64,000 nt of DNA from Eubacterium sp. AF36-5BH (GTDB lineage: Bacteria > Bacillota > Clostridia > Lachnospirales > Lachnospiraceae): the NCBI RefSeq assembly GCF_003460505.1, contig NZ_QTVG01000011.1, positions 15,244-79,243 on the forward strand. Reading direction: 5' to 3'. The position numbers were made by a program, and so were the translations under genes. Within the stretch, counting starts at the first letter, position 1; every line of letters starts with the position of its first letter. Below, in pieces: positions 5,805 through 61,630 of this stretch. The notes under the pieces are model-generated. The model was not told where the DNA came from. It did no database searches and saw nothing but the letters and a program-made list of their open reading frames with translations.

Positions 5805-8800
5805 ATGTACAAGAAAGTTTCAACTAATCTCAATTTTGTTGAGAGAGAAAAGCAGACAGAAAAGTTTTGGAAAGACAATGACATTTTTAAGAAAAGTATG
5901 GACAGTCGTAAGGAAGGAGAAACATATACATTTTATGATGGACCTCCAACAGCCAACGGTAAGCCACATATTGGACACGTTTTAACTCGTGTTATAAAAG
6001 ATATGATTCCACGTTACCAGACAATGAAGGGCCATATGGTTCCAAGAAAAGCAGGTTGGGATACTCATGGACTTCCTGTTGAATTAGAAGTAGAAAAGAT
6101 GCTTGGTTTAGATGGAAAAGACCAGATTGAAGAATACGGTCTTGTGCCTTTTATTGACAAATGTAAGGAAAGTGTTTGGAAATACAAAGGTATGTGGGAA
6201 GATTTCTCAGGTACTGTAGGTTTCTGGGCTGACATGGATAATCCTTATGTAACATACGATAACAACTATATTGAGTCAGAATGGTGGGCTTTAAAAACTA
6301 TTTGGGATAAAGGCTTATTATACAAAGGCTTCAAAATCGTTCCTTATTGCCCACGTTGTGGAACACCTCTTTCATCACAGGAAGTAGCTCAGGGTTACAA
6401 GGATGTAAAAGAACGTTCAGCAATCGTTAGATTCAAGGCGAAAGACGAGGATGCATATATTTTAGCATGGACAACAACACCTTGGACATTACCTTCAAAC
6501 GTTGCTCTTTGTGTAAACCCGAATGAAGATTACGCAAAGGTAAAAGCAGCAGACGGCTATGTATATTACATGGCAGTTGCTTTATTAGATACAGTTTTAG
6601 GTAGCCTTGGAAATGAAGAAGAAGGTGTTAAACCATACGAAATTCTTGAAACATACAAAGGTAAAGAACTTGAAGGCAAAGAATACGAGCCATTATATGA
6701 ATGTGCTCATGAAAAAGCTGAAAAGCAGCACAAGAAAGGTTTCTTCATTACATGTGATACTTATGTAACTCTTACAGATGGTACAGGTGTTGTTCATATC
6801 GCACCTGCATTCGGTGAAGACGATGCTAATGTTGGCCGTAACTATGACCTTCCATTTGTTCAGCTTGTTACTGAAAAAGGTGAAATGTCAGAAGAAACAC
6901 CATTTGCCGGCTTATTTGTAAAGAAGGCAGATCCTGAAGTATTAAAAGATTTAGATGCAAGAGGTTTATTATTTGACGCACCTAAATTTGAACATAGTTA
7001 TCCACATTGCTGGAGATGTGATACACCACTTATTTACTATGCACGTGAATCATGGTTTATTAAGATGACAGCAGTTAAGGATGATTTAATTAAAAATAAC
7101 AACACAATTAACTGGATTCCTGAAAGTATCGGTAAGGGACGTTTCGGAAACTGGATTGAAAATGTTCAGGACTGGGGCGTAAGCCGTAACCGTTATTGGG
7201 GAACACCACTTAACATTTGGCAGTGTGATTGTGGTTGCATGCAGTCAATTGGCAGTCGTCAGGAACTTTTTGAAAAGTCAGGTGACGAAAAAGCTAAGAC
7301 TGTTGAATTCCACAGACCTTACATTGATGAAATTACAATGCCATGTCCTGAATGTGGTGGCACAATGAAGAGAGTTCCGGAAGTTATTGACTGTTGGTTT
7401 GATAGTGGAGCAATGCCTTTTGCACAGCACCATTATCCATTTGAAAATAAAGATTTATTTGAACAGCAGTTCCCTGCAGACTTTATTTCAGAAGCTGTTG
7501 ACCAGACTCGTGGCTGGTTCTACACATTACTTGCAGAATCAACATTGTTATTTAACAAGGCTCCATACAAGAACGTAATCGTTTTAGGTCACGTTCAGGA
7601 TGAAAACGGACAGAAGATGAGTAAGTCAAAGGGTAATGCAGTTGATCCATTTGAAGCACTTGATAAATACGGTGCAGATGCAATCAGATGGTACTTCTAC
7701 ATTAACTCAGCTCCATGGCTTCCAAACAGATTCCATGGCAAGGCAGTAGAAGAAGGACAGCGTAAGTTCATGGGTACACTTTGGAACACTTATGCGTTCT
7801 ATGTACTTTATGCAGAAATCGATCAGTTTGATCCAACTAAGTACACACTTGATTATGATAAATTATCAGTAATGGATAAGTGGTTATTATCAAAGATGAA
7901 TTCTATGGTTAAGGCTGTAGATGACAACCTTGGAAACTACAGAATTCCTGAAGCTGCAAGAGCGTTAGATGAATTTGTTGATGAAATGTCAAACTGGTAT
8001 GTAAGACGTTCAAGAGAAAGATTCTGGGCAAAAGACATGCCACAGGATAAGATTAATGCTTACATGACACTTTATACAGCACTTGTTACTGTATCAAAGG
8101 CAGCAGCACCTATGATTCCATTTATGACTGAAGACATTTACCAGAATTTAGTTAGAAGTGTGGATTCAAGTGCAAAAGAATCAATTCACCTTTGTGACTT
8201 CCCAGAAGTTAATGAAGCTCAGATTGATAAAGAATTAGAAGAAAATATGGAAAGAGTTCTTAAGGTAGTAGTTCTTGGTCGTGCTTGTAGAAATAAGTCA
8301 AACATCAAGAACAGACAGCCAATTGGCAAAATGTTTGTAAAGGCTGATTTTGATTTACCTGAATTTTTCCAGGAAATTATTACAGAAGAATTGAATATAA
8401 AAGAAGTAGAGTTTACTGATGATGTTAGAGCATTCACATCATACTCATTTAAGCCACAGCTTAGAACTGTTGGACCAAAATATGGTAAGTTCTTAGGCAA
8501 GATTAAGGAAGCATTGGCAAGCCTTGACGGAAACAGTGCTATGGATAAGATTAATGCCGGCGAACCTCTTACATTTGACTTTGACGGTAATGAAGTTGTT
8601 CTTGAAAAAGAAGATTTACTTATCGACATGGCTCAGGTTGAAGGTTATGTTTCTGAAGCAGATGGCGACGTTACAGTAGTTCTTGACACTAACTTAAGTG
8701 ATGAATTATTAGAAGAAGGTTTTGTTCGTGAAGTAATCAGCAAGATTCAGACAATGAGAAAAGAAGCTGGATTCGAAGTAATGGACAAAATCGTTGTGAA

Positions 8801-8966
8801 TGTTGCTAATAATGACAAGGTTAAGGACGTTGTAGAACGTAATATTGATGAAATTAAGTCAGAAGTGTTGGCAGATAATGTCGAATTTGATACAATAAAA
8901 GGGTATGAGAAGGAATGGAACATTAATGGCGAAAAGGTTACATTAAGCGTTGAAAAAAACTCATAG
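5805..8966 (+). CDS. ileS: Isoleucyl-tRNA synthetase, long (type 2-like) form
   Basis: 1053 residues. This class I synthetase charges tRNA-Ile in the cytoplasm and edits misactivated valine. HIGH is at residues 55-58 within GPPTANGKPHIGH, and KMSKS is at 604-608. The central editing domain has the WTTTPWTLPSN segment. The length (over 1000 residues, against about 940 in E. coli) and the GWDTHGLPVELEVEK context fit the eukaryote-like type 2 IleRS, which in known cases tolerates mupirocin better than type 1; applying this here is inference. The C-terminal part is the long anticodon-binding region ending without a cysteine zinc knuckle. The ATG at 5805 follows AAAGGAG at normal spacing. Expression is set by the T-box upstream. 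Confidence 0.97.
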   Translation: MYKKVSTNLNFVEREKQTEKFWKDNDIFKKSMDSRKEGETYTFYDGPPTANGKPHIGHVLTRVIKDMIPRYQTMKGHMVPRKAGWDTHGLPVELEVEKMLGLDGKDQIEEYGLVPFIDKCKESVWKYKGMWEDFSGTVGFWADMDNPYVTYDNNYIESEWWALKTIWDKGLLYKGFKIVPYCPRCGTPLSSQEVAQGYKDVKERSAIVRFKAKDEDAYILAWTTTPWTLPSNVALCVNPNEDYAKVKAADGYVYYMAVALLDTVLGSLGNEEEGVKPYEILETYKGKELEGKEYEPLYECAHEKAEKQHKKGFFITCDTYVTLTDGTGVVHIAPAFGEDDANVGRNYDLPFVQLVTEKGEMSEETPFAGLFVKKADPEVLKDLDARGLLFDAPKFEHSYPHCWRCDTPLIYYARESWFIKMTAVKDDLIKNNNTINWIPESIGKGRFGNWIENVQDWGVSRNRYWGTPLNIWQCDCGCMQSIGSRQELFEKSGDEKAKTVEFHRPYIDEITMPCPECGGTMKRVPEVIDCWFDSGAMPFAQHHYPFENKDLFEQQFPADFISEAVDQTRGWFYTLLAESTLLFNKAPYKNVIVLGHVQDENGQKMSKSKGNAVDPFEALDKYGADAIRWYFYINSAPWLPNRFHGKAVEEGQRKFMGTLWNTYAFYVLYAEIDQFDPTKYTLDYDKLSVMDKWLLSKMNSMVKAVDDNLGNYRIPEAARALDEFVDEMSNWYVRRSRERFWAKDMPQDKINAYMTLYTALVTVSKAAAPMIPFMTEDIYQNLVRSVDSSAKESIHLCDFPEVNEAQIDKELEENMERVLKVVVLGRACRNKSNIKNRQPIGKMFVKADFDLPEFFQEIITEELNIKEVEFTDDVRAFTSYSFKPQLRTVGPKYGKFLGKIKEALASLDGNSAMDKINAGEPLTFDFDGNEVVLEKEDLLIDMAQVEGYVSEADGDVTVVLDTNLSDELLEEGFVREVISKIQTMRKEAGFEVMDKIVVNVANNDKVKDVVERNIDEIKSEVLADNVEFDTIKGYEKEWNINGEKVTLSVEKNS

Positions 8967-8999
8967 TAGGCTAGTTATTTGAACAGAATATAAATTTAT

Positions 9000-9030
9000 A
9001 AAGGAACGGTGTAAATCGTTCCTTTATGCG
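9000..9030 (+). terminator. Probable ileS terminator hairpin
   Basis: AAAGGAACG (9000-9008) pairs perfectly with CGTTCCTTT (9017-9025) across an 8-base loop, 34 bp after the ileS stop. The T-run is short. Confidence 0.55.
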
Positions 9031-9086
9031 TGTTATACGAATATACGCAACAGCATATGTATAGAATTTATCGATATAAGTTGTGT

Positions 9087-9157
9087 TATATGTTGGTGTA
9101 CATTTAATATTAGCATATAGGATATATATGTTGGTACACATTTAATATTAGCATATA
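9087..9157 (+). repeat. 38-bp-period tandem duplication
   Basis: TATATGTTGGT and TTTAATATTAGCATATA occur at 9087-9119 and again at 9125-9157 with 2-3 differences. The rest of the 8967-9353 spacer holds the ileS terminator and no convincing gene; the glgP promoter is not clear to me. Confidence 0.7.
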
Positions 9158-9353
9158 AGTGAAGTGTAAGCTTGGTAATATGTGATTCTTTGGGGAAAAT
9201 CGAAGGAGTGCTAAGCATGGAACAGTCATCATAATTAGGATTGTGGTGTTTGGATATCGAAATCATATTGGGAAAACAGCAGCACATATATTTTGCAAAA
9301 GATAGATGAATTTTATTGTATGTTACCAAATAATAAGGATAGGAGAGGGGTTT

Positions 9354-11828
9354 ATGACTAAAACAATGGACAGAATTCAAAAAGAAGAATTCAAGGAAGA
9401 ATTCAAAAAGCGTGTAAAAGATCAGGCAAAGATGCTTTACCGTAAGACTTTAGATGAAGTAAGTGACAGACACAAATTTGTATGTGTTGCTTATGCGGTA
9501 AAAGATATCGTTATTGACCAGTGGATTGCTACACAGAAGGCTTATGATGAGGCTGATGGCAGAACGGTTTATTATTTATCAATGGAGTTCTTAATGGGAA
9601 GGGCTTTAGGTAACATGATTATTAACTTATCTGCAAGAGATGAAATTAAAGAATCAATTGAGGAACTTGGACTTGATTTAAACGTAATTGAAGACCAGGA
9701 ACCTGATGCAGCTTTAGGTAACGGTGGATTAGGTCGTCTTGCAGCTTGTTTCTTAGACAGTCTTGCAACTTTAAATTATCCTGCATATGGATGTGGAATC
9801 AGATACAAATACGGTATGTTCCAGCAGAAGATTGAAAATGGATATCAGAAAGAAATTCCTGAAGATTGGTTAAGACATATTAATCCATTAGAAATCAAGC
9901 GTGAAGAGTATGCTTGTGAAGTTAGATTTGGTGGTACTGTTAAGATTGATCACAGAGACGGACGTGATTATTATGGTCAGGAAGGTTATCAGGCAGTTAT
10001 GGCTGTTCCTTATGATATGCCAATCGTAGGATATGGCAACAATGTTGTTAATACATTACGTATTTGGGATGCAGAACCAGTTGTTCATTTTAACCTTGAA
10101 GAATTTGACAAGGGTTCATATATGGCAGCAGTTGAACAGGAAAACCTTGCTAAGACAATTACAGAGGTTCTTTATCCAAATGATAACCATTATGCAGGTA
10201 AGGAACTTAGATTAAAACAGCAGTATTTCTTTGTTTCAGCTTCACTTCAGACAGCAATTAAGAAGTATTTAAAGAAGCATGATGACATTAAGAAATTACA
10301 TGAAAAAGTAGTATTCCAGATGAATGATACTCATCCAACATTAACAGTTGCAGAATTAATGAGACTTTTAATGGACGTTTATTATTTAGAATGGGATGAA
10401 GCTTGGGAAGTTACTACAAAGTGTGTAGCTTATACAAACCATACAATTATGGCTGAAGCTCTTGAAAAATGGCCTATTGAATTATTCTCAAGATTACTTC
10501 CAAGATGTTATCAGATTGTTGAAGAAATCAACAGAAGATTCTGTCTTGAAATTGAAGAAAAATATCCTGGTAACTATGACAAGATTGCTAAGATGGCAAT
10601 TATTTATGATGGTCAGGTTAAGATGGCAAACTTAGCAATTTGTGCCGGCTATTCAGTAAACGGTGTTGCTAAGCTTCATACAGAAATTCTTGAAAAGCAG
10701 GAATTAAAGGACTTCTATGAAATGATGCCACAGAAGTTTAATAACAAAACAAATGGTATTACACAAAGAAGATTCTTGCTTCATGGAAACCCTCTTCTTG
10801 CTGAATGGGTTACAAACAAGGTTGGCGATGATTGGATTACAGACCTTCCAAAAATCAAAGGCATTGAAGTATACGCAGATGATAAGAAGGCTCAGGCTGA
10901 GTTCATGAACATTAAGTATCAGAACAAAGTTCGTCTTGCAAAATATATCAAAAAACATAATGGAGTTGATGTAGATCCACGTTCAATCTTTGATGTTCAG
11001 GTTAAGAGACTTCATGAATACAAACGTCAGTTACTTAACATTTTACATGTTATGTATTTATACAATCAGATTAAAGAACATCCTGATATGGAATTTATTC
11101 CAAGAACTTTTATTTTCGGAGCAAAGGCAGCAGCAGGATACAAGATTGCAAAACTTACAATTAAGTTAATCAACAGTGTTGCAGATGTAATCAACAATGA
11201 TGAGTCAATCAACGGTAAGATTAAGGTTGTCTTCATTGAAAACTACAGAGTTTCAAATGCAGAAATCATTTTTGCAGCAGCAGATGTTTCAGAACAGATT
11301 TCTACAGCTTCAAAGGAAGCTTCTGGAACAGGTAACATGAAGTTCATGTTAAATGGTGCATTAACACTTGGAACAATGGACGGTGCAAATGTTGAAATCG
11401 TCGAAGAAGTTGGCAAGGAAAATGCATTTATCTTTGGTATGTCTTCAGACGAAGTTATTGGTTACGAAAATAATGGTGGATATGATCCAATGCAGATTTT
11501 CAATTCAGACATGGATATTAGAAAAGTTCTTATGCAGTTAATTAACGGATTCTACTCACCTGATAATCCTGAAAGATTCAGACCAATTTACAACTCACTT
11601 CTTACAAAGGAAGAAACAGGTTGTGCAGACAGATACTTCATCTTAAAGGACTTCCAGTCTTACGCAGAAGCTCAAAGACGTGTTGAAGCAGCTTACAAAG
11701 ATGAAGCAGGTTGGGCAAAATCAGCGATGCTTAACGTAGCAAACGTAGGCAAGTTCACATCAGATAGAACAATCGAAGAATACGTAAGAGATATCTGGCA
11801 CTTAGAGAAAGTAAAGGTAGAATTGTAG
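9354..11828 (+). CDS. glgP: Glycogen/maltodextrin phosphorylase
   Basis: 824 residues from the ATG at 9354, which follows AGGAGAGGGG; an upstream in-frame start at 9306 has no good site. The enzyme releases glucose-1-phosphate from alpha-1,4-glucans with pyridoxal phosphate. The PLP lysine is Lys663 in ASGTGNMKFMLNGA, followed by TLGTMDGANVEI. Other family blocks are DAALGNGGLGRLAACFLDS near residue 110-130 and QMNDTHPTL. The length is typical of GT35 phosphorylases. It stands alone between a repeat-containing spacer and a strong terminator. Whether glycogen or maltodextrin is preferred cannot be read from sequence. Confidence 0.96.
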   Translation: MTKTMDRIQKEEFKEEFKKRVKDQAKMLYRKTLDEVSDRHKFVCVAYAVKDIVIDQWIATQKAYDEADGRTVYYLSMEFLMGRALGNMIINLSARDEIKESIEELGLDLNVIEDQEPDAALGNGGLGRLAACFLDSLATLNYPAYGCGIRYKYGMFQQKIENGYQKEIPEDWLRHINPLEIKREEYACEVRFGGTVKIDHRDGRDYYGQEGYQAVMAVPYDMPIVGYGNNVVNTLRIWDAEPVVHFNLEEFDKGSYMAAVEQENLAKTITEVLYPNDNHYAGKELRLKQQYFFVSASLQTAIKKYLKKHDDIKKLHEKVVFQMNDTHPTLTVAELMRLLMDVYYLEWDEAWEVTTKCVAYTNHTIMAEALEKWPIELFSRLLPRCYQIVEEINRRFCLEIEEKYPGNYDKIAKMAIIYDGQVKMANLAICAGYSVNGVAKLHTEILEKQELKDFYEMMPQKFNNKTNGITQRRFLLHGNPLLAEWVTNKVGDDWITDLPKIKGIEVYADDKKAQAEFMNIKYQNKVRLAKYIKKHNGVDVDPRSIFDVQVKRLHEYKRQLLNILHVMYLYNQIKEHPDMEFIPRTFIFGAKAAAGYKIAKLTIKLINSVADVINNDESINGKIKVVFIENYRVSNAEIIFAAADVSEQISTASKEASGTGNMKFMLNGALTLGTMDGANVEIVEEVGKENAFIFGMSSDEVIGYENNGGYDPMQIFNSDMDIRKVLMQLINGFYSPDNPERFRPIYNSLLTKEETGCADRYFILKDFQSYAEAQRRVEAAYKDEAGWAKSAMLNVANVGKFTSDRTIEEYVRDIWHLEKVKVEL

Positions 11829-17225: not shown

Positions 17226-17936
17226 ATGGGAATAAAAGTAGCAATATGCGATGATGACAAAGAAGTGTGTACTAGCGTAAATCATATTGTGGAAAAACTA
17301 TTACACCAAACAGAAATAAAAGCAGAGATTTATACATTCTATTCAGGAAAAGAATTATGTGAAAAAATGTTAAATGTTAAATACGATTTGATATTTTTAG
17401 ACATAGAAATACCGGAAATGAATGGAGTGGAAATAGGTAAGTATATTAGGAAAAAACTTGAAAATAATGTGGCTCAAATAGTGTATATATCTTCTAAAAA
17501 ATCTTATGCAATGGAGCTTTTTGAAAACAGGCCTTTTGATTTTTTAATTAAACCATTGACAGAAGAAGCAATTAAGAAGGTTCTAAACAATTATTTAAAT
17601 GTATATGGAGACAGAGGATTGTTTTTTACATATCAAAAAAGCAAGTCAACATATAATATTGAATTAAGTAAAATAATGTATTTTGAAAGAAATAAGCGAA
17701 AGATAACTGTAAAAACAACAGAAGAAGACGATGAGTTTTACGGTTCACTAGAGGATATATACACGGAACTTAAAGATAATAAATTTTTCTTTATACATAA
17801 ATCATTTTTAGTAAACTATTCTTTTATTAAAATTTTTAATAATGACAAGGTGATTATGGCTGATGGAAGAGAATTGCCAATTAGTCAGGCAAGAAGAAAA
17901 AAAATAAGAGAGAAATACTTAAAGATGGAGGGATAA
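17226..17936 (+). CDS. LytTR-family response regulator (AgrA/VirR type)
   Basis: 236 residues. The receiver domain (1-120) has the acidic pocket CDDD at 8-11, phospho-acceptor Asp59 in FLDIEIPEMNG, and Lys in FLIKPL. Residues about 135-232 form a LytTR DNA-binding domain (YFERNKRKITV, GSLEDIYTEL, FFIHKSFLVNYSFI). Such regulators bind direct repeats spaced 21 bp apart. It ends one base before the histidine kinase ATG, so the two are translationally linked. The candidate target is the promoter at 19416-19443, 3' of the pair. Confidence 0.94.
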   Translation: MGIKVAICDDDKEVCTSVNHIVEKLLHQTEIKAEIYTFYSGKELCEKMLNVKYDLIFLDIEIPEMNGVEIGKYIRKKLENNVAQIVYISSKKSYAMELFENRPFDFLIKPLTEEAIKKVLNNYLNVYGDRGLFFTYQKSKSTYNIELSKIMYFERNKRKITVKTTEEDDEFYGSLEDIYTELKDNKFFFIHKSFLVNYSFIKIFNNDKVIMADGRELPISQARRKKIREKYLKMEG

Positions 17937-17937
17937 A

Positions 17938-19215
17938 ATGGAAAACTTAATTTATACTATATCATATGTTTTGTCAACAATATTTCAGTTATATGTTATA
18001 TCGAAATTTATGATAATGTTTTTGGACAGGGGAAAAACAAACAAGTGGATAACCTGCTGCACCTATATATTACAATTTGCAGTTGGGGCAATCCAATACA
18101 AAGTCGCACCTAATATTATTGTAAATATTGGGGTAGGCTTAATTACAATATTTATAATATCATTATGCTACGGAGGGACAATTTTAAATAAAGTCATTTC
18201 AGTAATGCTAATATACTTATGTCTTTTTGGCGCGGAACTAATAGGTACCGGAATGCTTGAAATTACAGGAACAAGAATATCCATGGATGGACAAAATGGT
18301 GATGCGTTATCTTGTATTGTTGTTGCAATAATGCTGTGGATAATTTATGAGATTATAAGAATGTTTAAGGTTTCTGATACACAATTCAAAATGCCTAAAA
18401 TATTTAGTGGTATAATTATCCTGTTAAGTGTGGCAGCTATTACATTGGAAATGGTTATATTCTTATATGGAAACGTGCCGGAACTAGTGAAAATTGTTTC
18501 AGTTATGTGTATGCTTGTAATATTGTTTTTGATAATTTTTATGTATGATATTTTAAATGATTACTATAATGAAAAGATTCGTTTAGAGCTGCTTGAAAAA
18601 GAAAAAAACTACTATTTAAATCAGGCAGAATTAGCTACTGAACATGTAAATGAAATAAGAAAATTCAAACATGATATTAAAAATCATTTGCTGGCACTAG
18701 ATGCCATAATGCAAAATGATAGAAAGGGAGCAAAAGAATATATTACAGAGTTAGAGGACAGAGTTTCCAGCGAAGAATTATATAGTGAAAGTGGTAATGT
18801 AGCAGTCGATAGTGTTATTAATTATAAATTGTCCCATGCAACAAACAAAAATATTAAAGTATCAAGTAAGATTGTAATTCCAGAGCAATTTAGCATAGAC
18901 ACAAAAGATATAATAACAATTATTGGAAATCTTTTAGACAATGCAATTGAGGCAGCAGATAAAACTGACGGTAGAAAATATGTAAATATACATATGGAAT
19001 TAAAAATGGGAAATCTTTTTATTGAAGTTAGCAATAGCTATAACGGCAAGATAAAACAAGAAGATGGAAAGTTTATAACGGACAAGACCGACAAAAAAAT
19101 CCACGGAATTGGAATTACAAATATTAAGGATACACTAAAAAAATACGAAAGTAATATAGACTTTTCTTATACCGAAAAAGATTTTTGTGTAAAAGTTATT
19201 ATGTGCAAAAAGTAA
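17938..19215 (+). CDS. GHKL-type sensor histidine kinase (AgrC-like)
   Basis: 425 residues. The first about 210 residues contain 6-7 hydrophobic segments and form a polytopic sensor. The kinase core has the phospho-acceptor His245 in KFKHDIKNHLLALD, an N-box TIIGNLLDNAIEAA (N331, N335) and a late GIGITNIKDTLKKY G-box. This is the peptide-sensing AgrC/ComD architecture, partnered with the LytTR regulator immediately upstream. No autoinducer peptide or AgrB-like processing gene is adjacent, so the signal is unknown. It is followed by a strong terminator, separating it from the putative target operon. Confidence 0.93.
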   Translation: MENLIYTISYVLSTIFQLYVISKFMIMFLDRGKTNKWITCCTYILQFAVGAIQYKVAPNIIVNIGVGLITIFIISLCYGGTILNKVISVMLIYLCLFGAELIGTGMLEITGTRISMDGQNGDALSCIVVAIMLWIIYEIIRMFKVSDTQFKMPKIFSGIIILLSVAAITLEMVIFLYGNVPELVKIVSVMCMLVILFLIIFMYDILNDYYNEKIRLELLEKEKNYYLNQAELATEHVNEIRKFKHDIKNHLLALDAIMQNDRKGAKEYITELEDRVSSEELYSESGNVAVDSVINYKLSHATNKNIKVSSKIVIPEQFSIDTKDIITIIGNLLDNAIEAADKTDGRKYVNIHMELKMGNLFIEVSNSYNGKIKQEDGKFITDKTDKKIHGIGITNIKDTLKKYESNIDFSYTEKDFCVKVIMCKK

Positions 19216-19267
19216 AAAAACTCTTAAAATTCAGTTTTTTAAAATTGGATTTTAAGAGTTTTTTTAT
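19214..19267 (+). terminator. Terminator of the two-component operon
   Basis: AAAAACTCTTAAAAT (19216-19230) pairs with ATTTTAAGAGTTTTT from 19249, followed by a T-run, immediately after the kinase stop. Confidence 0.85.
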
Positions 19268-19269
19268 AC

Positions 19270-19321
19270 AATAAGATATTTTTCCGTAATTTCTTATTAT
19301 ACAAAAACGTTCAACTAGGGA
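19270..19321 (+). promoter_or_regulatory. 52-bp element shared with 28144-28194, copy 1
   Basis: About 40 of 52 positions match the copy before the sortase gene: AATAAGA, 18 bases, TATTAT, then AAAAAC(G)TTC(A/C)ACTAGGGA. Both copies start right after an intrinsic terminator. The AATAAGA...TTATT arms form a weak inverted repeat. It could be a promoter plus untranslated leader of an unknown type. Confidence 0.4.
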
Positions 19322-19384
19322 TACCACACTGGGTGCTAATAATGTCACAAGCCACATTATTTTTTTGCTAAAACTGTAAATTTT

Positions 19385-19414
19385 TACAATTTGAGCTTGT
19401 TTTTTTACAATTTG
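19385..19414 (+). promoter_or_regulatory. Putative LytTR operator, two TACAATTTG direct repeats 21 bp apart
   Basis: TACAATTTG occurs at 19385-19393 and 19406-19414. Two 9-bp sites with a 12-bp gap give the two-helical-turn spacing that LytTR regulators such as AgrA recognise, and the second site nearly touches the -35 box. The nearby LytTR regulator (17226) is the likely binder; this is inference. Confidence 0.6.
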
Positions 19415-19415
19415 G

Positions 19416-19443
19416 TTGAAAAAAAATTCTCAGGTGTTACTAT
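19416..19443 (+). promoter_or_regulatory. Promoter of the secreted protein/ABC operon
   Basis: TTGAAA (19416-19421), 16 bp, TACTAT (19438-19443) with an upstream TG (extended -10). It lies just downstream of the putative LytTR operator and 50 bp before the first gene. Confidence 0.55.
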
Positions 19444-19492
19444 ATGGGCAGCTATCCGGATAATGAAAAATTAGTATAAGGAGAAGAAAAAT

Positions 19493-19918
19493 ATGAGAAA
19501 AAAATTAATTGCACTACTTATGTGTACATGCATAGTTTTTGGCGGAACAGTATCTACATATGCAAATACCATAACATATAATATTACTGTTACAAAAGAC
19601 TCTAGTGCTGCAAAAAAAGATGATAACAAATCGTTAAAGGTAAAAAAAGATGGTGGTAATAAGTATGAATCATGCTTTTATGTGTCACCAAAATATTTTA
19701 GCAATTCTGTTGCAAAAATGCAGTTACATTCTTTTAAGGCTGAATACCCTGAAAGAGTAATATCAGACAGAATGCTTATTAGCAAAAAGAGTGTAGGAAA
19801 AACAAAAACTGCATTATATGATTACAGAGTGGCAGCAGGCGAATATTATTGTCTTATAGGTGGATATTATTCAGGTAAAGCTGGATCAGTGCATTCAGAT
19901 GGAAAATATACACCATAA
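19493..19918 (+). CDS. Small secreted protein, first gene of a LytTR-controlled operon
   Basis: 141 residues. The N terminus (MRKKLIALLMCTCIVFGGTV) is a Sec signal peptide with likely cleavage after TYA (about residue 24). The mature part is basic in its first half, has a single cysteine (ESCFYVS), an aromatic AAGEYYCLIGGYYSGKAG segment, and ends HSDGKYTP. The short beta-rich make-up and G-x-(Y/W)-(T/S)-P end recall small secreted proteins of Firmicutes encoded beside ABC transporters (DUF2712 or lactococcin-972-like); that resemblance is tentative. It is followed after 13 bp by the lipoprotein gene. A secreted effector or signal is an inference from context. Confidence 0.75.
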   Translation: MRKKLIALLMCTCIVFGGTVSTYANTITYNITVTKDSSAAKKDDNKSLKVKKDGGNKYESCFYVSPKYFSNSVAKMQLHSFKAEYPERVISDRMLISKKSVGKTKTALYDYRVAAGEYYCLIGGYYSGKAGSVHSDGKYTP

Positions 19919-19931
19919 AAGGAGGAATTAG

Positions 19932-20981
19932 ATGTACAAGTTACTAAAAAAAATCACATTGTTAGCAACAACGTGTTTTCTTGCAACTTCCTTTGTTGGA
20001 TGTAACAATTCAGGAATTGCAAAAAATGAAACATCTAATAATTCTTCAAAACAGTATCATGTATCCGGAGATAATATATCTCTGGATACTACTGTTGAAA
20101 ATGTTCCAAACAATGTGAAGCTAATTGAAGCAAAAAGAAAAAAAATAGATACAGATAAATTAAAAAAACTACTTTTTGGGAATAACAGTAATAATGTAAA
20201 GATGATAGAAAAAGGCTATTATAGAGATAATCTCAATAATTCCTTGTACATACGAAAATATGGAGGCTTTTTCTATACTTCACAAAATTATGATTATTAT
20301 GAAAGTTCTATATATACCGACATCCGAGACGATAGTTATAATTTAGACAAGTTTTCACTAACTGAAAATTTAAAATTTATGACAAGAAAAAATGCTATAA
20401 AATGGGTAAAAAAACAGCTACAAGATATAAATATTAATTTAGGGGAAGTTGAATATAATTGTTATGCCATAAAATATGAGCAATTAAAAAAATATGAAAA
20501 ACATTACGATGTAGATGGAACAATCAACTCAAAAATCCAAAAAAGAAATTGGTCGGAAAAAGATGATTGCTATTATATTAGTATTAGACAGAAAGTTAAT
20601 GGAATAGTTGAATACCATGAATTTGAAGGTGAATTTCAAAATTACGAAGATTCAAAAGCATCTGTTGTTGCTATAGTTTCTAAAAGAGGATTTGAATATA
20701 TTGAAATCACATCAGCCTTTGATTTTGGAAATGTCAATAAGACTGTATCAATAAAAAATCCTCAGGATATTCTGGATAATATTTCAACTCAGTATTCTAA
20801 CATTGAAGGAGAAGAGAAGTATAGCATTATGAGTTTTAAGTTATGTTATTATACTAACATCAAGGAAAACGATAAAGTAACTCCAATTTATGAATGTTAT
20901 ATGCTTGAAAAAAATAAAAATGGAATAAGTAGATTGCAGTTGTTTTTTGATGCGTCTACCGGTGAGGCGTTGGAATTATGA
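19932..20981 (+). CDS. Lipoprotein of unknown function
   Basis: 349 residues with a lipoprotein signal peptide; the lipobox SFVGC places the lipidated residue at Cys24. The mature protein is rich in Lys, Asn and Tyr and shows no motif I recognise. It ends LQLFFDASTGEALEL, similar in type to proteins with PepSY/YycH-like folds, but this is weak. It lies between the secreted protein gene and the first membrane protein, overlapping the latter by 4 bases (ATGA), so it is translationally coupled to the transporter. A periphery-exposed accessory or immunity role is inference. Confidence 0.75.
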   Translation: MYKLLKKITLLATTCFLATSFVGCNNSGIAKNETSNNSSKQYHVSGDNISLDTTVENVPNNVKLIEAKRKKIDTDKLKKLLFGNNSNNVKMIEKGYYRDNLNNSLYIRKYGGFFYTSQNYDYYESSIYTDIRDDSYNLDKFSLTENLKFMTRKNAIKWVKKQLQDININLGEVEYNCYAIKYEQLKKYEKHYDVDGTINSKIQKRNWSEKDDCYYISIRQKVNGIVEYHEFEGEFQNYEDSKASVVAIVSKRGFEYIEITSAFDFGNVNKTVSIKNPQDILDNISTQYSNIEGEEKYSIMSFKLCYYTNIKENDKVTPIYECYMLEKNKNGISRLQLFFDASTGEALEL

Positions 20982-21787
20982 TAAGGTGTTTAAAAACAGA
21001 TTTATACAGAGCATTATTTAATTTTAAATTTGTAATTATTGTTCTATGTATAGCTATAATTCCTTTTCTTGGAGCAAGTGGAACAGGTGGAATAGATCTT
21101 TCAATATTAGCAAAGGGTGATTCGATTTTTGATTGCTTGTATTATGCCTTGGTTATGAGTCATTTTGGAATAATGGTATTTATATTTACTGCATTGACAT
21201 TTTCTGATTGTCTGTGTGATGATTTAAATTACAAAAATTATTTATACAGTGTCACCCGAAGTGGAAAAAATACATACATTCTTTCAAAAATTATTACTGT
21301 AGTAGTATCAGTAATTGTGTCATTTATGTTAGGAATGATATTGTATGCCTTTATGTCAAAAACGTTCTTCAGATTTAATTGGTACAAGACAGGTGCTGAT
21401 AATTTTGTATTAAGTGATTTGATGGATTCTAATCTGTTTAAAGGTTTAGTGGAAGAAAAGAAATACGTGACCATATTTATGATTATGATATTGTTTCAGT
21501 CGCTTTTATATTGTATTACTTCATTATGCTCTATGTTGGCTTCGTTATACATTAAGAACAGGCTATTAGTTTTATGTGTTCCGTGCATATTAATAACAGT
21601 AGGAAACTATATTATGATAGAACTGATTCCCAATTTTCCAGGTTATATATATGTGTATATGATAAATAGTTTTCAACAGAAAACATGGGTGGAATTAATA
21701 GTGCAGATAATAGCACCGACGTTGGGAATAATAATAGTTTTGGGAATGCTAATAACAATAAAATTTAGGAGGAATATAGTTGATTAA
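20978..21787 (+). CDS. ABC-2-like membrane permease subunit 1
   Basis: 269 residues with about six hydrophobic segments, starting MIRCLKTDLYRALFNFKFVIIVLCIAIIPF, the usual opening of ABC-2 type permeases (a short amphipathic start, then a first membrane helix). A central loop contains LYSVTRSGKNTYILSKII, a typical permease cytoplasmic-loop pattern. It overlaps the lipoprotein gene by 4 bases and the next permease gene by 8 bases. With the next gene and the ATPase at 22732 it likely forms one exporter. The substrate is unknown; the secreted protein at 19493 uses a Sec signal and need not be the substrate. Confidence 0.75.
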   Translation: MIRCLKTDLYRALFNFKFVIIVLCIAIIPFLGASGTGGIDLSILAKGDSIFDCLYYALVMSHFGIMVFIFTALTFSDCLCDDLNYKNYLYSVTRSGKNTYILSKIITVVVSVIVSFMLGMILYAFMSKTFFRFNWYKTGADNFVLSDLMDSNLFKGLVEEKKYVTIFMIMILFQSLLYCITSLCSMLASLYIKNRLLVLCVPCILITVGNYIMIELIPNFPGYIYVYMINSFQQKTWVELIVQIIAPTLGIIIVLGMLITIKFRRNIVD

Positions 21788-22652
21788 CAAAATTAATTAT
21801 GCAAAACATATATTTTATTCGTTAGAGGATAAAATTTTCACATCCCGTGCATTATCAACATTAGTCTTACTTTTTATATATAATTTTGTCTTTGCAATAC
21901 CATTACTTAATATGGCAAAAGATGTAGGATATGATATTAATGTTACAGTTTTACCAATGTACCTATATGATTTTGAGTATGACTGTGGATTTATAGCAAT
22001 AATGTTATATTTCTTCTCTGGAGTACCTTTTTTAAAGTCTTCAGAAATGTATTGTATTATTAGGGAAGGAAAGTCATACTGGGCAATTAAACAAATTATA
22101 CATATAGTTGCTATGTCATTTGTTTTTATTGTTATGGCAGCAGTTACAAGTATAATGCCATTCTTAATAAGAGGAGACATCAATAATCAATGGGGAAAAA
22201 TAGCATATACATTGTCATTGACAGATAAGAATCTAGAGTACGATTGCGTAAAGTTTCCAAGCAGTATATTAAATAAATATACTCCATGGGAAAGCTTAAT
22301 TGTATGTGCATTGTTTGTAATGGTGATAGTTATGTTTATGGGAATTTTAATGTTTACGTTTAGTCTGGTTTTTAATAGAGTAATAGGAATTTGTATGGGA
22401 GCATGTTTTGAAATACTAATGATAGTAGCATACAATCTAAGAATTGCTATAGGAGTACTTGTATATGTTTCTCCATGCTCATGGCTTGATATTACAGTAT
22501 TAGGAAAACAAAAATCGGATTTTGACTATTCTCTGGGAACACCTACAATGTCACAATGTCTTATAGAATTAATAATAGCAATGGTATTTTTTAGCATAGT
22601 AAGCGTTATTAGAATAAATAGAATGAGTTTGAATTATACAAATGAGGATTAA
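21780..22652 (+). CDS. ABC-2-like membrane permease subunit 2
   Basis: 290 residues with about six membrane segments. The start is TTG at 21780, chosen because a perfect AGGAGG lies about 7 bases upstream and because it overlaps the previous stop. Residues about 85-100 (YCIIREGKSYWAIKQIIHIV) parallel the loop of the preceding permease (YSVTRSGKNTYILSKII), supporting a pair of diverged paralogues. It probably heterodimerises with that subunit. The ATPase gene follows after 79 bp. Confidence 0.72.
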   Translation: MINKINYAKHIFYSLEDKIFTSRALSTLVLLFIYNFVFAIPLLNMAKDVGYDINVTVLPMYLYDFEYDCGFIAIMLYFFSGVPFLKSSEMYCIIREGKSYWAIKQIIHIVAMSFVFIVMAAVTSIMPFLIRGDINNQWGKIAYTLSLTDKNLEYDCVKFPSSILNKYTPWESLIVCALFVMVIVMFMGILMFTFSLVFNRVIGICMGACFEILMIVAYNLRIAIGVLVYVSPCSWLDITVLGKQKSDFDYSLGTPTMSQCLIELIIAMVFFSIVSVIRINRMSLNYTNED

Positions 22653-22731
22653 AAGCTATGGGAATTTCGGAAATATGAATTATTTGTATAAATTCAAACA
22701 AAATATTTTAAGAAATAAGATGGAGGTAGAA

Positions 22732-23376
22732 ATGTCACAAGTTACTATAAAGGTAGATAATGCTGTAAAGAAATTTGACAAATATACAGTTCTTGACCAT
22801 GTGAACATCACATGTAACAAAGGTGAAATATGTGGAATTGTTGGTAGAAACGGCTCGGGAAAAACAGTTCTGTTTAAAAGTATTTGTGGGTTTGTCAAAT
22901 TAAATGAAGGAACCATTACAGTAAATGGTAAGGTAATGGGAAAGGATATGAAAGTTCTGAAAAAGGCAGGTATTATAATAGAAGAACCGGGTTTTTTGCG
23001 AAATAAAAGTGGTATGAAGAATTTAGAATACTTATATATGATTAATAATAAAAGGGATAAGAAATACTTAAGAAGCGTTATGGAAAATGTGGGTTTAGAT
23101 CCTTATAGCAGAAAAAAAGTAGGTAAGTATTCTTTAGGAATGCGACAGCGTTTAGCCATTGCACAGGCAACAATGGAGGATCAGGATATCATAATTCTTG
23201 ATGAACCAATGAACGGACTTGATAACCATGGGGTTCAGGAAGTAAGAGAATATCTGTTACAGCTAAAGAAACAGGGGAAGACCATTTTAATTGCCAGTCA
23301 TAATAGAGAAGACATAGATGTACTATGCGATAAGGTTTATGAAATGGATAATGGAAGAGTTATAAGTGAAAAATAA
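22732..23376 (+). CDS. ABC transporter ATP-binding subunit
   Basis: 214 residues from the ATG at 22732, preceded by TGGAGGTAG; an in-frame ATG at 22642 overlapping the permease stop lacks a site. Walker A is GRNGSGKT (residues 38-45), the signature is YSLGMRQRLAIAQ, Walker B is IIILDEPMNGLD, and the switch His is in ASHNRED. This is the short CcmA/BcrA-like ATPase found with ABC-2 permeases in bacitracin- or lantibiotic-type export and immunity systems. It energises the two preceding permeases. It is the last gene before a strong terminator. Confidence 0.93.
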   Translation: MSQVTIKVDNAVKKFDKYTVLDHVNITCNKGEICGIVGRNGSGKTVLFKSICGFVKLNEGTITVNGKVMGKDMKVLKKAGIIIEEPGFLRNKSGMKNLEYLYMINNKRDKKYLRSVMENVGLDPYSRKKVGKYSLGMRQRLAIAQATMEDQDIIILDEPMNGLDNHGVQEVREYLLQLKKQGKTILIASHNREDIDVLCDKVYEMDNGRVISEK

Positions 23377-23600: not shown

Positions 23601-23623
23601 TGTGGTAAAACCACACCAGGAGG
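23601..23623 (+). promoter_or_regulatory. Hairpin next to the ribosome binding site of the surface protein gene
   Basis: TGTGGT AAA ACCACA (23601-23615) forms a perfect small hairpin two bases before AGGAGG (23618-23623). It argues for the ATG at 23629 rather than the GTG at 23602 as start, though the GTG also has an upstream AGGAG. Confidence 0.45.
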
Positions 23624-23628
23624 TTGTT

Positions 23629-26600
23629 ATGGGTAAGGCTAAATTAAATAAGAAATTGACATCACTAATATTGATTTTAGCATTAGTTGCAACTATTATT
23701 CCAACTAGTGTCTATGGAAATCTATTGGTGAGCAAAAACACAAAGACATTAAAGACTGCCAAAGCTGTAAGAATGGCAGCAGTAGACAGCGCTGCAGGAG
23801 GAAGTGAGGCAGCAGATGAAGCTTATATTAGTAAGCTTGCAATTATTAGTAAGAATGGAACAGTTTGGGGTGAAGGAATTGAAACAGGAACTCCAAAATT
23901 CGACGAGAATGATGAAAGAGGAAATGATTCATCAAAAAGTAATGACAGAGTAAGATCTTACGATTCTATAACCTATAATGTGGCAACAGAAATTCAATCA
24001 AGAAACAACAAGACATTTGCGGAAGGCAGAGTAGGTTACAAGGTAACTGTTGATGACGATGATGAAATACAACTAGGAATTTCATCAATGGGTTGGGTCG
24101 AAGATTTAGAGACTAAAAAAGAAAATGGTAAAAAAATATATACTTTTTATAGAAACCTTCCAACTACTAATGGGGCTGCTATTCCGGGAGGATGTACAGT
24201 ACCTATTGTATTAGAAGTAGGTGGAAAAGGCGAAGGAGATATTGTTCAGCCAACTATAGAGTCATGGGTTGAAGGATATAAGGAAACAGTACAGATTGTA
24301 CCAGATGAAGTAAAGGTAACATCAGTGCCAAAGTATAATATCCAATTAGTAAAGGGAACATGTAGTCAGAGAGGAACATTTGATTTTTCAACAGCTACAT
24401 ATAACAAGGATAAAAATAAAGTAGAAGGATATGAAGCAGTATATGGTATTGTTTTACAGTTGAGAAATGATGATTATGATAAGGGAATTAAAGGAGTGGA
24501 ACTTCCAAAGGGTGATATAACATTCGATGTGGATTTCAACTCTACATTTTTTCCAACAGGTGGAACATTACAAAATATAACAGAGACATATACACCATTA
24601 TTATTTTCAACAGATGAAAACAAAAATGATGCTTTGTCTGTAAAGAACATACCGGCAAGTAATGATGCCGGAGACACAGGATGTTATAACAGTGGAATTT
24701 GGAGTGCAGTTCAAAATGGTAGTAAAATATCTTTTACAGTAAAAGACTATAAGATTGATATGTCACAATTTCCAAAACATGATTTGGCCAATTCAAATCA
24801 ATATAATATGAGTGACGGTAAAGTTGCCATTGGATGTTTTGCATCATGCAGAATGAAGGTCATTCAGCCAACAACAACAGTTGATGGTTCGGTTAAAATT
24901 GAGGATGAATATAATAGTAAAACAGGTGAAGTTCAAATAAATGCTACAGTAGACAATATGAAAGCTGTTGGCGTAAGTGATACGGAAACTACTAAACAGA
25001 CAGTTACAACAGATGATAATCAGTCATTTGAACGTTCCTTAGTAACAGATGGAAAAAGAAGCCAGATTATTTATTTTAGTTCTAATGTAGAAGGTCATAT
25101 ACATTATGGCACAGATGAAGAAAGAGACAAAAATATTAATGATGGTTCAGATGCGTTAACTGTTGGCAGTAAATTTGCGTATACAATTGCCTATGCTGAA
25201 AAGGAAGTTAGTCAGAGCAATATAAATGGACATTCAATCGCAGTTAATCAGTTAGTTAAATTTGATGACAGTGCTATTGAGTTTAATATGGATAGGCAGG
25301 CTAATGCAATGTCAGGAAGAAGTGGCTCATTTGTTTATAACGCTGTTTTTGCGGCGAAGCCTGACAAAACAGGTTGGAATCATAAAGGATTAAAACCGGA
25401 TGAAGAAGGCTATGATGACGAAATGCTCGATACAAAAGAGGAAGATTTGGTTTATTTTACTTCTTTGGAGGAGCTGGAAAATCACGGATATACATGTGTG
25501 GGAATGCTATATGAATGGCGTGGATGTAATACCGGTACAAAAGATACATCTATTGAAACACAGGGATTTATCCAAATAAAGAAAAATTTTGACATAACAA
25601 AATATGCCTATGGAATTACAGCTACAACTAATGCTTGGCTTATAAGCGATTATGCAGATACTGTAAGTTTTGAAGAAGGAAAAGAAGAGGAAACTTTAAA
25701 AAAATGGTATCAGTATGCAGTTTCATCTACAAATCGTTATATGCAGGGAACAGGAGCACCAACACAAGAACATACAGTTGATCTTGATCCCGGAAGAGGA
25801 TACGTTAAGGCAAAATATGATGAAACAGGATATATTGGTGGCGAAAAAAATAGTTGGCCACTTGGGGACAGTGTTTACGTTGTTCCATATTATGCTAAGA
25901 TTTCAAAACAGGTTGAACAGACAAACAAAACAGAAAGAAAATCAATTTATACATTAGATAATGGCGAACGATATGTTGACTTTGTTTTGGCAAGTCAGTT
26001 AGAATTTGCACAGGATGTAACTGTACCTGATGATTTTACAACAAATGTTTACATTACTGACATATTGCCTAAAGGCTTAACGTATGTTGAAGGAAGCTCG
26101 AAATATGGAGGAACATATAAAGAAAATACACCTAGTGCAGGAACAGTGACAGGTGGAGATAATATTGAACCTGAATCAATTACTAAAAACATAGACGGTA
26201 CAACTACATTAAAGTGGAAAATACCTAATCAGAAAGTGACAAATGGTGATCTTCCTTCACTTCACTATAGTTGTAAAATAGGTGATGAAGAAAATCCGGA
26301 AAATGATGTGACAAATAATGCAACATTAACAAATGTTGCTAAGATTTCTACAGATGAAGATAAGAGAAAACAGGCAGCAGAACTTGGCAATTTATCAACA
26401 GCCGGAATTTCAATTGTAAAATTATCATCATTTAATATTACAAAAACAGGCACAAAAAATCTTGAAAGATTTGGAACTGCAAATTACAAAATGGTCATTA
26501 ATAATTCAGGAAATACTGCAACGGATAATGTTTATGCTGTAGACTCAATGCCTGTAGATGGTGTTAATGGAACCGTTATGAAGGGTAGTTACAAAATTCT

Positions 26601-28068
26601 TTCAATGAAGATTAATATAAACAAAATTAAAGATATAAATGATGTAAAAGTGTATTATACAAATGATAAGACATTTGCAGGAAAGTATGCAAGCCAGATT
26701 ACATTAGAGCAGGTTAAGCAGTGGTCTGTAGCAACAATTGATAAGACAACAGGTGAAATAACAGGAGAAGGGTTAACAAATGGATGGCCTGCAGCGTGGG
26801 CATTTGTAGATGATTCTCTCAAAGCTATGAGCTCTTCTATAATTGATATGACTTATAGTTTGGATGATGCAGCGGCAAATGATGTTTTATTTAACAGTTA
26901 TTCTCAGGAAACATTAGTCAGTACAGCTATGAGTAAGGTTTATGATCGTTCTTTAGAAGGTAAGGTATTTATTGATAAGAACAAAGATGGAATTTTCAAC
27001 AATGATGACATCGAAGTAAAGAACACAAAGGTTATTCTTTATAAAAAAGATGGTACAAAGGTTGCAGAACAGTTAACCGATGAAAATGGAAATTACAAAT
27101 TTGAAAAATTAGAAGCTGGAGAATATTATGTTGATTTCGAATCAACAGAGGATGTTGATTTGTCAAAGTATAAGGTAACAAATCAGTTTGCACAGGATGA
27201 TGATAAGAAGGGACATGATGATTCTAAGGCAGAAGGTGAAAGTAATACTGAAACCGGCAAACTTAATAAAGCTAAAATAACAGAAATAACCTTACCAACA
27301 ATTGATGAAATGGTTGAACAAAATATTACTCATGCAGAAGTTAAGTATCAGAATTTAGGTTTACTAGATACAAGCACTGAGACAACACCACAGGTGACAA
27401 CGCCTAAGGATACAACACCGGCGTCAACAACAAAAGAAACAACACCACAGACAACAACGCCTAAAGACACAACACCGGCGTCAACAACAAAAGAAACAAC
27501 ACCACAGGCAACAACGCCTAAGGATACAACACCGGCGTCAACAACAAAAGAAACGACACCACAGGCAACAACGCCTAAGGACACAACACCGGTGTCAACA
27601 ACAAAAGAAACAACGCCACAGACAACAACGCCTAAGGATACAACACCGGCGTCAACAACAAAAGAAACGACACCACAGGCAACAACGCCTAAGGATACAA
27701 CACCAGTGACAACACCACAGGCAATATCTGAAACGTCTAGTGAAAAAACAGGTGTTACAACAACTGCTGGAGAAACAAATAAAAAAACAACAAAGAAAAA
27801 TAAAGGTAAAAAGACAACCAAGAAGTCACAGAGAGCCACATCAAAGAGTGGAAGTGAAAATGGTAGTTTAAATAAGAACAACAATGCTAAAGGCAAAAAC
27901 AACAAAAATAATAACAATAATAGTGGAAATGAAAGTTCTTCAAATAGTGGTTCATTAAATACTGCTCAAACAGGAGAAGCATCAAACATTCTTTGGTTTA
28001 TTGGAATCTTTGCATTAGCATTAGGTGCATACATTTTTTATGCATCAAGAAGAAAAGCTAACAAATAA
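23629..28068 (+). CDS. Wall-anchored surface protein with SdrD-B-like domain, Thr/Pro repeats and sorting signal
   Basis: 1479 residues from the ATG at 23629. The signal peptide is residues about 5-32 (TSLILILALVATIIPTSVYG). A large N-terminal region of unknown fold follows. DUF11-like segments appear near residue 800-850 (YITDILPKGLTYVEGSS) and again near 960-1010. An SdrD-B/Cna-B-like domain starts about 1108 (LEGKVFIDKNKDGIFNNDD...VILYKKDG), with an Asp/Asn calcium-type loop. Five 19-residue Thr/Pro repeats (1262-1356) and a Lys/Asn/Ser-rich stalk lead to a C-terminal TAQTGE (about 1445), a hydrophobic helix and RRKANK. The sorting motif is AQTG rather than LPxTG. The next gene is a class B sortase, which probably anchors it. 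A 57-bp repeat region makes length variation likely. Confidence 0.88.
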   Translation: MGKAKLNKKLTSLILILALVATIIPTSVYGNLLVSKNTKTLKTAKAVRMAAVDSAAGGSEAADEAYISKLAIISKNGTVWGEGIETGTPKFDENDERGNDSSKSNDRVRSYDSITYNVATEIQSRNNKTFAEGRVGYKVTVDDDDEIQLGISSMGWVEDLETKKENGKKIYTFYRNLPTTNGAAIPGGCTVPIVLEVGGKGEGDIVQPTIESWVEGYKETVQIVPDEVKVTSVPKYNIQLVKGTCSQRGTFDFSTATYNKDKNKVEGYEAVYGIVLQLRNDDYDKGIKGVELPKGDITFDVDFNSTFFPTGGTLQNITETYTPLLFSTDENKNDALSVKNIPASNDAGDTGCYNSGIWSAVQNGSKISFTVKDYKIDMSQFPKHDLANSNQYNMSDGKVAIGCFASCRMKVIQPTTTVDGSVKIEDEYNSKTGEVQINATVDNMKAVGVSDTETTKQTVTTDDNQSFERSLVTDGKRSQIIYFSSNVEGHIHYGTDEERDKNINDGSDALTVGSKFAYTIAYAEKEVSQSNINGHSIAVNQLVKFDDSAIEFNMDRQANAMSGRSGSFVYNAVFAAKPDKTGWNHKGLKPDEEGYDDEMLDTKEEDLVYFTSLEELENHGYTCVGMLYEWRGCNTGTKDTSIETQGFIQIKKNFDITKYAYGITATTNAWLISDYADTVSFEEGKEEETLKKWYQYAVSSTNRYMQGTGAPTQEHTVDLDPGRGYVKAKYDETGYIGGEKNSWPLGDSVYVVPYYAKISKQVEQTNKTERKSIYTLDNGERYVDFVLASQLEFAQDVTVPDDFTTNVYITDILPKGLTYVEGSSKYGGTYKENTPSAGTVTGGDNIEPESITKNIDGTTTLKWKIPNQKVTNGDLPSLHYSCKIGDEENPENDVTNNATLTNVAKISTDEDKRKQAAELGNLSTAGISIVKLSSFNITKTGTKNLERFGTANYKMVINNSGNTATDNVYAVDSMPVDGVNGTVMKGSYKILSMKININKIKDINDVKVYYTNDKTFAGKYASQITLEQVKQWSVATIDKTTGEITGEGLTNGWPAAWAFVDDSLKAMSSSIIDMTYSLDDAAANDVLFNSYSQETLVSTAMSKVYDRSLEGKVFIDKNKDGIFNNDDIEVKNTKVILYKKDGTKVAEQLTDENGNYKFEKLEAGEYYVDFESTEDVDLSKYKVTNQFAQDDDKKGHDDSKAEGESNTETGKLNKAKITEITLPTIDEMVEQNITHAEVKYQNLGLLDTSTETTPQVTTPKDTTPASTTKETTPQTTTPKDTTPASTTKETTPQATTPKDTTPASTTKETTPQATTPKDTTPVSTTKETTPQTTTPKDTTPASTTKETTPQATTPKDTTPVTTPQAISETSSEKTGVTTTAGETNKKTTKKNKGKKTTKKSQRATSKSGSENGSLNKNNNAKGKNNKNNNNNSGNESSSNSGSLNTAQTGEASNILWFIGIFALALGAYIFYASRRKANK
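27412..27696 (+). repeat. Five in-frame 57-bp repeats in the surface protein gene
   Basis: Each unit encodes TTP(A/V)STTKETTPQ(T/A)TTPKD. The copies differ by only a few bases, so copy-number change by slippage or recombination is expected. The opposite strand is open over this stretch only because of the repeat. Confidence 0.95.
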
Positions 28069-39581: not shown

Positions 39582-40121
39582 TTGAGCAGACTTAAAGAAA
39601 AGTATTTAAACGAGATTAAGGATGAAATGCAGAAGAAGTTCGAGTATAAGAATGTTATGCAGATTCCAAAACTCGATAAGATTGTTATAAACATGGGTGT
39701 TGGCGAAGCAAAGGAAAACGCTAAAATCTTAGACACAGCTGTTAAAGATCTTGAAACAATTACAGGTCAGAAGGCTGTTGTAACAAGAGCTAAAAATTCA
39801 GTAGCTAACTTCAAGTTAAGAGAAGGACAGCCAATCGGATGTAAGGTTACTCTTAGAGGAGAAAGAATGTATGAATTCTTAGATAGATTAGTAAATCTAG
39901 CACTTCCTCGTGTAAGAGACTTTAGAGGTGTTAATCCAAATGCATTTGATGGAAGAGGAAACTACGCTCTTGGTATTAAAGAACAGATTATTTTCCCAGA
40001 AATCGAATACGATAAGGTTGATAAGGTTAGAGGTATGGACATTATCTTTGTTACTACAGCTAACACTGATGAAGAAGCTCGTGAATTATTGGCACAATTT
40101 AACATGCCATTTGCAAAGTAA
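39582..40121 (+). CDS. rplE: 50S ribosomal protein L5
   Basis: 179 residues with a TTG start 8 bases after GAGGTCC/AGGAGG. L5 binds 5S rRNA and contacts the P-site t[45 protein letters not shown] and [41 protein letters not shown] are diagnostic. A TTG start is rarer than in the neighbouring genes. Confidence 0.97.
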
Positions 40122-61603: not shown

Positions 61604-61630
61604 ACTTAAAATATACACTTTTGCAAAGGT

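Follow-up and report, generated by a model that had tools for sequence, protein, structure and literature searches.

A conserved Lachnospiraceae operon for a small secreted protein, a lipoprotein and an ABC pump beside an Agr-like two-component system: a possible bacteriocin-like unit with self-protection

Introduction

In lantibiotic producers LanI binds the lantibiotic and LanFEG expels it, as stated in PMC5786555. A gene arrangement recalling these LanI/LanFEG (NisI-NisFEG type) systems is present in Eubacterium sp. AF36-5BH, a member of the Lachnospiraceae. It lies within positions 15,244 to 79,243 of contig NZ_QTVG01000011.1 (assembly GCF_003460505.1), a stretch of 64,000 nucleotides which is called the window here and from whose first base the window coordinates are counted. 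The gene order, all on the + strand, is LytTR regulator, GHKL kinase, terminator-like hairpin, secreted protein (sec), lipoprotein (lipo), two permeases (perm1 and perm2) and ATPase. Like LanI/LanFEG, the window combines a lipoprotein with two permeases and a single ATPase, close to genes for a secreted product and for a two-component system. They differ in that the window product is a Sec-exported folded protein of ~12 kDa and that the window lipoprotein has a predicted YycI-like fold.

Three further systems resemble parts of the locus. With Agr (agrBDCA) the window shares a GHKL kinase with a polytopic membrane domain and a LytTR regulator, but it has no AgrB or AgrD and is not a complete agr locus. 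Lactococcin 972-type bacteriocins are also small unmodified Sec-secreted proteins with ABC genes; however, their profile PF09683 is absent among the matches to E 1 for the five sec rows of alignment A3 that were scanned. Finally, a locus with a DUF2712 protein (L078; the compared loci are numbered L001-L123) has a similar layout of secreted protein, anchored protein, three permease-like open reading frames (ORFs) and ATPase. We found no literature on DUF6034, DUF2712 or EUBREC_2869/5coz, and no paper describing the operon as a unit in its title or the start of its abstract, subscription literature being mostly outside the coverage.

We favour, with a probability of about 0.45, the interpretation that the operon encodes an Agr-type-regulated, Sec-secreted bacteriocin-like protein together with a self-protection unit analogous to LanI/LanFEG. 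An Agr-type two-component system would control the operon, and sec, a small unmodified beta-sandwich protein, would act on other bacteria and harm them. The membrane-anchored lipoprotein would bind sec at the cell surface and so protect the producer, while the ABC-2 pump of two permeases and one ATPase would clear it from the membrane. The computed observations behind this interpretation are the genes themselves, their conserved order, the linkage to LytTR regulators, agrBD in a few relatives, the modelled folds, and the presence and absence of sec over a conserved pump.

Conservation of the operon

The first lipo alignment reached six contig loci, from Hathewaya, Syntrophomonas, Blautia, Lachnotalea and two metagenome-assembled Lachnospiraceae genomes (L003, L006). 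At E 0.001 a wider alignment gave matches in 55 out of 348 genomes of Lachnospiraceae, although many of the weakest span no more than one protein end. Longer stretches were taken for 34 places, 32 from the search of the 348 genomes and two from another. The compared set comprises 41 loci chosen by lipo, including the window and L001-L006; L078, L084, L085 and L120-L123 stand outside the 41-locus counts.

In total 44 lipo genes occur in 40 loci. For 35 of them, perm1, perm2 and the ATPase come next on the same strand; these make up 34 operons, since one operon has two lipo genes. A sec homologue lies directly upstream in 14 of these 34 operons. The sequence-only reading had proposed linkage of the five genes in other genomes as its own test; four genes are thus linked in 34 operons and all five in 14, and the same linkage is seen in four extra loci found by starting from sec. 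Some readings are broken or cut: perm1 is in two frames in L062, the perm1 and ATPase frames are short in L071, and lipo is cut by a contig end in L050. Seven of the nine remaining lipo genes are without a pump (L003, L043, L049, L053 twice, L059 and one in L075); the other two are in L055, where perm1 pieces alone are found near a contig end, and in L051, which has pump genes before lipo. L072 contains sec, with a lipo match running into the contig end.

Starting from sec, the search of the 348 genomes gave 30 places in 26 genomes, 17 of them near full length and 13 partial. Twelve of the 17 were already in the query alignment, and the other five are in four new loci (L120-L123). In all four, sec precedes a lipoprotein-like gene, two permease-like genes and an ATPase, where the lipoprotein of L121-L123 and the second permease of L122-L123 were recognised by position, size or lipobox, outside the profiles. 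Two sec paralogues occur at one locus in L068, flanking the operon (6615-10907), and in L120, in tandem (6903-7837). A second anchored protein follows the ATPase in L123, L122 and L078. The sec profile finds matches in only five of 299 genomes sampled across the phylum; two of these were already known (G003, G002), and the remaining three are weak, partial matches. Beyond the Lachnospiraceae sample the family thus appears rare.

Regulation and linkage to agr genes

The regulator (17226-17936, 236 amino acids) is AgrA-like and has a receiver (PF00072, 59.2 bits) and a LytTR DNA-binding domain (PF04397, 63.9 bits). The AgrC-like GHKL sensor kinase (17938-19215, 425 amino acids; PF14501, 84.4 bits) shows six hydrophobic segments in the hydropathy profile. 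These domains and the ABC_tran domain of the ATPase exceed the curated Pfam cut-offs. The kinase reaches 34.5 bits with the NCBIfam AgrC model, far below its cut-off of 500, and for the regulator the 25 top-ranked NCBIfam models shown do not include AgrA. Directly 3' of the kinase lies an intrinsic terminator-like hairpin of 20 pairs with a T run (19218-19261). As two terminator-type sites were found in the scanned stretch against 1.5 expected in shuffles, the count is no evidence by itself. With all ORFs present, the regulator, kinase, terminator and five-gene operon described from the sequence alone are borne out.

A LytTR regulator is encoded at most 5 kb from lipo in 15 of the 41 loci, whereas 1.1 would be expected from the density of LytTR matches (262 over 97.6 Mb, 29 genomes). 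Twelve of the 15 are also called by Pfam LytTR and three by the in-house profile alone; L072 would add one if loci were counted by sec. The clearest orders are those of L054 (regulator, kinase, AgrD, AgrB, sec, lipo, perm1, perm2, ATPase) and L072 (regulator, kinase, AgrB, AgrD, sec), in both of which AgrB (PF04647; 123.5 and 116.2 bits) and AgrD (TIGR04223; 50.1 and 34.0 bits) are above the cut-offs. L123 (3992-11530) has AgrB, a LytTR regulator and a GHKL kinase upstream of a DUF2712-type operon, and an AgrD-like ORF of 49 amino acids, seen by eye and not scored, ends 27 bases before sec. It is therefore probably the third relative with AgrB, AgrD, kinase and regulator adjoining sec. The Agr-like character assigned to the window pair agrees with this context. 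L075 retains an AgrB fragment. In L001 (Hathewaya) an agr-like locus of AgrB (G001:C2:26667-27188), regulator and kinase lies ~7 kb upstream of lipo, with other genes between.

In general, AgrB occurs in 16 of 32 genomes with lipo loci at 43 places, nearly all of them distant from the lipo operons. In the window, L004 and L067 the kinase/regulator pair has no accompanying AgrB, and the L004 and L067 genomes, whose completeness is not known, give no AgrB match anywhere. When AgrB of three relatives and AgrD of two were compared by phmmer with the 447 window ORFs of at least 30 amino acids, one match of 14.9 bits appeared. It lies antisense within ORF 39582-40121, by eye ribosomal protein L5. 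By eye there is also no AgrD-like ORF of at least 20 amino acids in the kinase-sec interval. The earlier remark on the absence of AgrB thus holds, and AgrD is likewise not found beside the window operon, by both phmmer and ORF reading.

Between hairpin and sec a perfect direct repeat, ACAATTTG-N13-ACAATTTGG (19386-19415), abuts a weak candidate promoter, TTGAAA-16-TACTAT (19416-19443), recognised by consensus match; 59 matches of this type were found against 45.2 expected. AgrA-type LytTR boxes are direct repeats of ~21-base period, and the window repeat, with a period of 21, is a candidate for such a box. Its pattern was derived from the site itself; when the 250 bases upstream were shuffled 300 times with dinucleotides preserved, two of the shuffled sequences scored as high (p 0.010). 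From the gene position and this one repeat we infer that the operon may be under two-component control and that the regulator might bind the repeat. Upstream of lipo in L061 (~6885-6920) there is also a period-21 repeat, TACCAAAAAATCCA/TACCAAAAATGCCA, with no LytTR regulator found within 5 kb.

The secreted protein, the lipoprotein and the pump

Sec (19493-19918) has 141 amino acids, of which ~117 form the mature part. Its signal peptide was recognised by eye and hydropathy and its tail reads GKYTP, in line with the first description as a small Sec-secreted protein. The window protein is modelled as a beta-sandwich (pLDDT 83.9), as are other proteins of the family. Among 5.8 billion proteins only five close homologues are found at E 0.01, while iterated profiles identified 16 sec proteins within the compared loci. 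In alignment A7 (17 rows, P0002 included) a signal peptide is followed by a K-D/N-rich middle and a tail of mostly G-x-[YW]-x-P; P is at the end in 16 of 17 rows (exception L054) and G five from the end in 16 of 17 (exception L072). A comparison of sec with the PDB sequences gave no meaningful match.

The relation to DUF2712 is less direct. Window sec does not match DUF2712 (PF10916), and a profile comparison with the L078 protein was negative. However, the sec protein of L123 passes the DUF2712 cut-off (32.1 vs 22 bits; the sole passer among the sec proteins scanned) and is also recovered by the sec profile (E 5.6e-5). A distant relationship between window sec and DUF2712 is therefore probable, despite the negative direct tests.

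Lipo (19932-20981, 349 amino acids; Cys24 is nearly invariant in the alignment) is homologous over nearly its full length, in sequence and fold, to the solved protein 5coz (EUBREC_2869) of Eubacterium rectale, for which we know of no function. The model has a YycI/YycH/YpeB-like fold, and the link to YycI and YycH, regulators of WalK-type kinases, is one of fold resemblance. Close homologues are again few (six proteins at E 0.01 among 5.8 billion). DUF6034 (PF19499) matches two of nine lipo relatives but not window lipo, and the L123 lipoprotein belongs to DUF5027. Orphan lipo relatives without a pump, 36-37% identical, are found in L084 (6964-10985) and L085 (7027-11048) in the order regulator, kinase-like ORF, membrane-anchored protein of 292 amino acids and lipo, which is similar to walRK-yycHI. 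The lipo gene of the Blautia isolate (L004, ~9593-10675) contains one in-frame TAG, so this copy may be broken or read wrong.

Perm1 (20978-21787, 269 amino acids, six hydrophobic segments) and perm2 (21780-22652, 290 amino acids, TTG start, about seven hydrophobic segments) are ABC-2-like permeases according to hydropathy and conserved position. Overlaps of four bases (lipo/perm1) and eight bases (perm1/perm2) are present as reported before. The ATPase ORF at 22642-23376 has the expected ABC domain (PF00005, 102.6 bits); its start, however, is more likely at 22732, judged from a GGAGG just upstream and a resulting length of ~214 amino acids, compared with 213-227 in the ATPases of L001, L002 and L004-L006 (n=5). 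The ATPase would therefore not overlap perm2. Sec, lipo, perm1 and perm2 match no Pfam or NCBIfam model above cut-off. Window perm1 has no Pfam match, its L001 homologue has a weak ABC2_membrane_4 match below cut-off, and perm2 and its scanned homologues have none.

In line with the likeness to bacteriocin immunity or peptide resistance suggested earlier, the best NCBIfam model for the ATPase is the lantibiotic protection ATPase TIGR03740, with a match of 164.6 bits that is below the family cut-off of 309.75. In comparison with LanE/LanG, the window has two permease-like proteins without family match. No LanBC/LanM-type enzyme is among the eight scanned proteins between 17226 and 28068, with no room between them, the rest of the window having been viewed as an ORF list; a lanthipeptide precursor was not noted beside the operon, precursors not being profile-searched. 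By analogy of role, lipo and the pump may work like LanIFEG, with a folded Sec protein as the cargo.

Downstream of the operon (23602-28068) a secreted surface protein of 1488 amino acids is encoded, with an SdrD_B domain, TTPKDTTPASTTKE repeats and a hydrophobic C-terminal end. Near the window's end the ORF list shows, by eye, a transposase-like ORF (60266-61684) and an HsdM-like ORF (62312-63907).

Evolution of sec over the pump

On a tree of perm2 and ATPase from the 34 operons, sec presence switches 13 times and LytTR linkage ten times. Sister operons differ in sec in three cases (window/L061, L004/L067 and L054/L046), and the window, with sec and the LytTR pair, is sister to L061, which has neither. 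This favours a pattern of cargo varying over a conserved pump, as with immunity or resistance genes occurring without cargo. In the 14 operons with sec, the distances of sec correlate with those of lipo (Mantel r 0.54, p 0.0005), perm1 (0.49), perm2 (0.33) and ATPase (0.24), and the partial correlation with lipo given the ATPase is 0.50. The distance correlation favours a tie between sec and lipo; neither this tie nor the cargo pattern is thereby proved.

Weighing of the explanations

The main alternative is a peptide-resistance module of the Cpr/Lan type, because 20 of the 34 operons are without a sec found. Here the two-component system would respond to an antimicrobial peptide of foreign origin, or to envelope damage, by inducing the pump, and sec would have an accessory role, binding or neutralising the peptide extracellularly. 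Nine of the 20 operons have a LytTR regulator within 5 kb, and CprABC, with the lipoprotein encoded beside it, has a similar layout of lipoprotein, three-subunit pump and two-component system; for that lipoprotein PMC5786555 shows no role. We nevertheless regard this explanation as rather unlikely, since all 17 near-full-length sec places adjoin lipo or a lipoprotein-like gene, the pump is present at each of them save L072, where the contig end cuts, and sec covaries with lipo. Moreover, the position of sec behind agrBD in two or three relatives points to an input of self-density and not of threat. A signalling unit, in which sec is a protein ligand, the YycI/YycH/YpeB-fold lipoprotein relays its binding to the kinase, and the pump adjusts how much ligand or sensor is present, appears more doubtful still. 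AgrC-like kinases sense through their membrane domain, and 11 of the 34 operons have sec with no LytTR regulator found within 5 kb. That sec is a carbohydrate-binding surface protein, with lipo and pump needed for its export or placement in a cell-surface or glycan-binding module, seems very improbable to us.

The bacteriocin-like interpretation has its own difficulties. Besides the 20 operons without sec, sec matches no bacteriocin family in the scans made, and lipo shares its modelled fold with kinase regulators and a protease propeptide. Sec does not clearly outpace lipo or perm1 in divergence (median identities 0.19 for sec, 0.20 for lipo and 0.21 for perm1) and therefore gives no sign of an arms race. 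On the perm2 and ATPase tree, the four-group labels are no more clustered than shuffled ones (20 changes against a mean of 17.8 after shuffling, where 192 of 200 shuffles gave a count as low), seven of the 31 internal forks are unresolved, and the 13 changes could be inflated by divergent sec genes that escaped detection. The Mantel result could be explained by plain co-inheritance with unequal saturation. The repeat test does not set LytTR-linked loci apart from unlinked ones, giving p<0.05 in five of 14 and three of 18 respectively (Mann-Whitney p 0.32). The sequence-only reading is altogether partly supported: linkage and the Agr-like context stand, while the role in antagonism or signalling stays a proposal.

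Implications

If the bacteriocin-like interpretation is true, a conserved and unnamed operon type of the Lachnospiraceae would encode a family of secreted weapons, or of protein signals, each served by its own protection pump and likely to escape bacteriocin mining based on known precursors. With clearly less assurance, we suggest that the sec proteins of Lachnospiraceae and other Clostridia are bacteriocins of a new class: unmodified, Sec-secreted beta-sandwich proteins under quorum-sensing control, mostly with the G-x-[YW]-x-P tail and distantly tied to DUF2712. Their immunity unit would also be new, with a binding lipoprotein of YycI/YycH fold; in loci that lack agrBD, such as the window, sec may be the kinase ligand. 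The main interpretation would give testable functions to the uncharacterised DUF2712-like and DUF6034/5coz families and would indicate an operon that agr systems control in Clostridia. Where sister operons differ in the presence of sec, their hosts may form natural pairs of producers and resistant strains.

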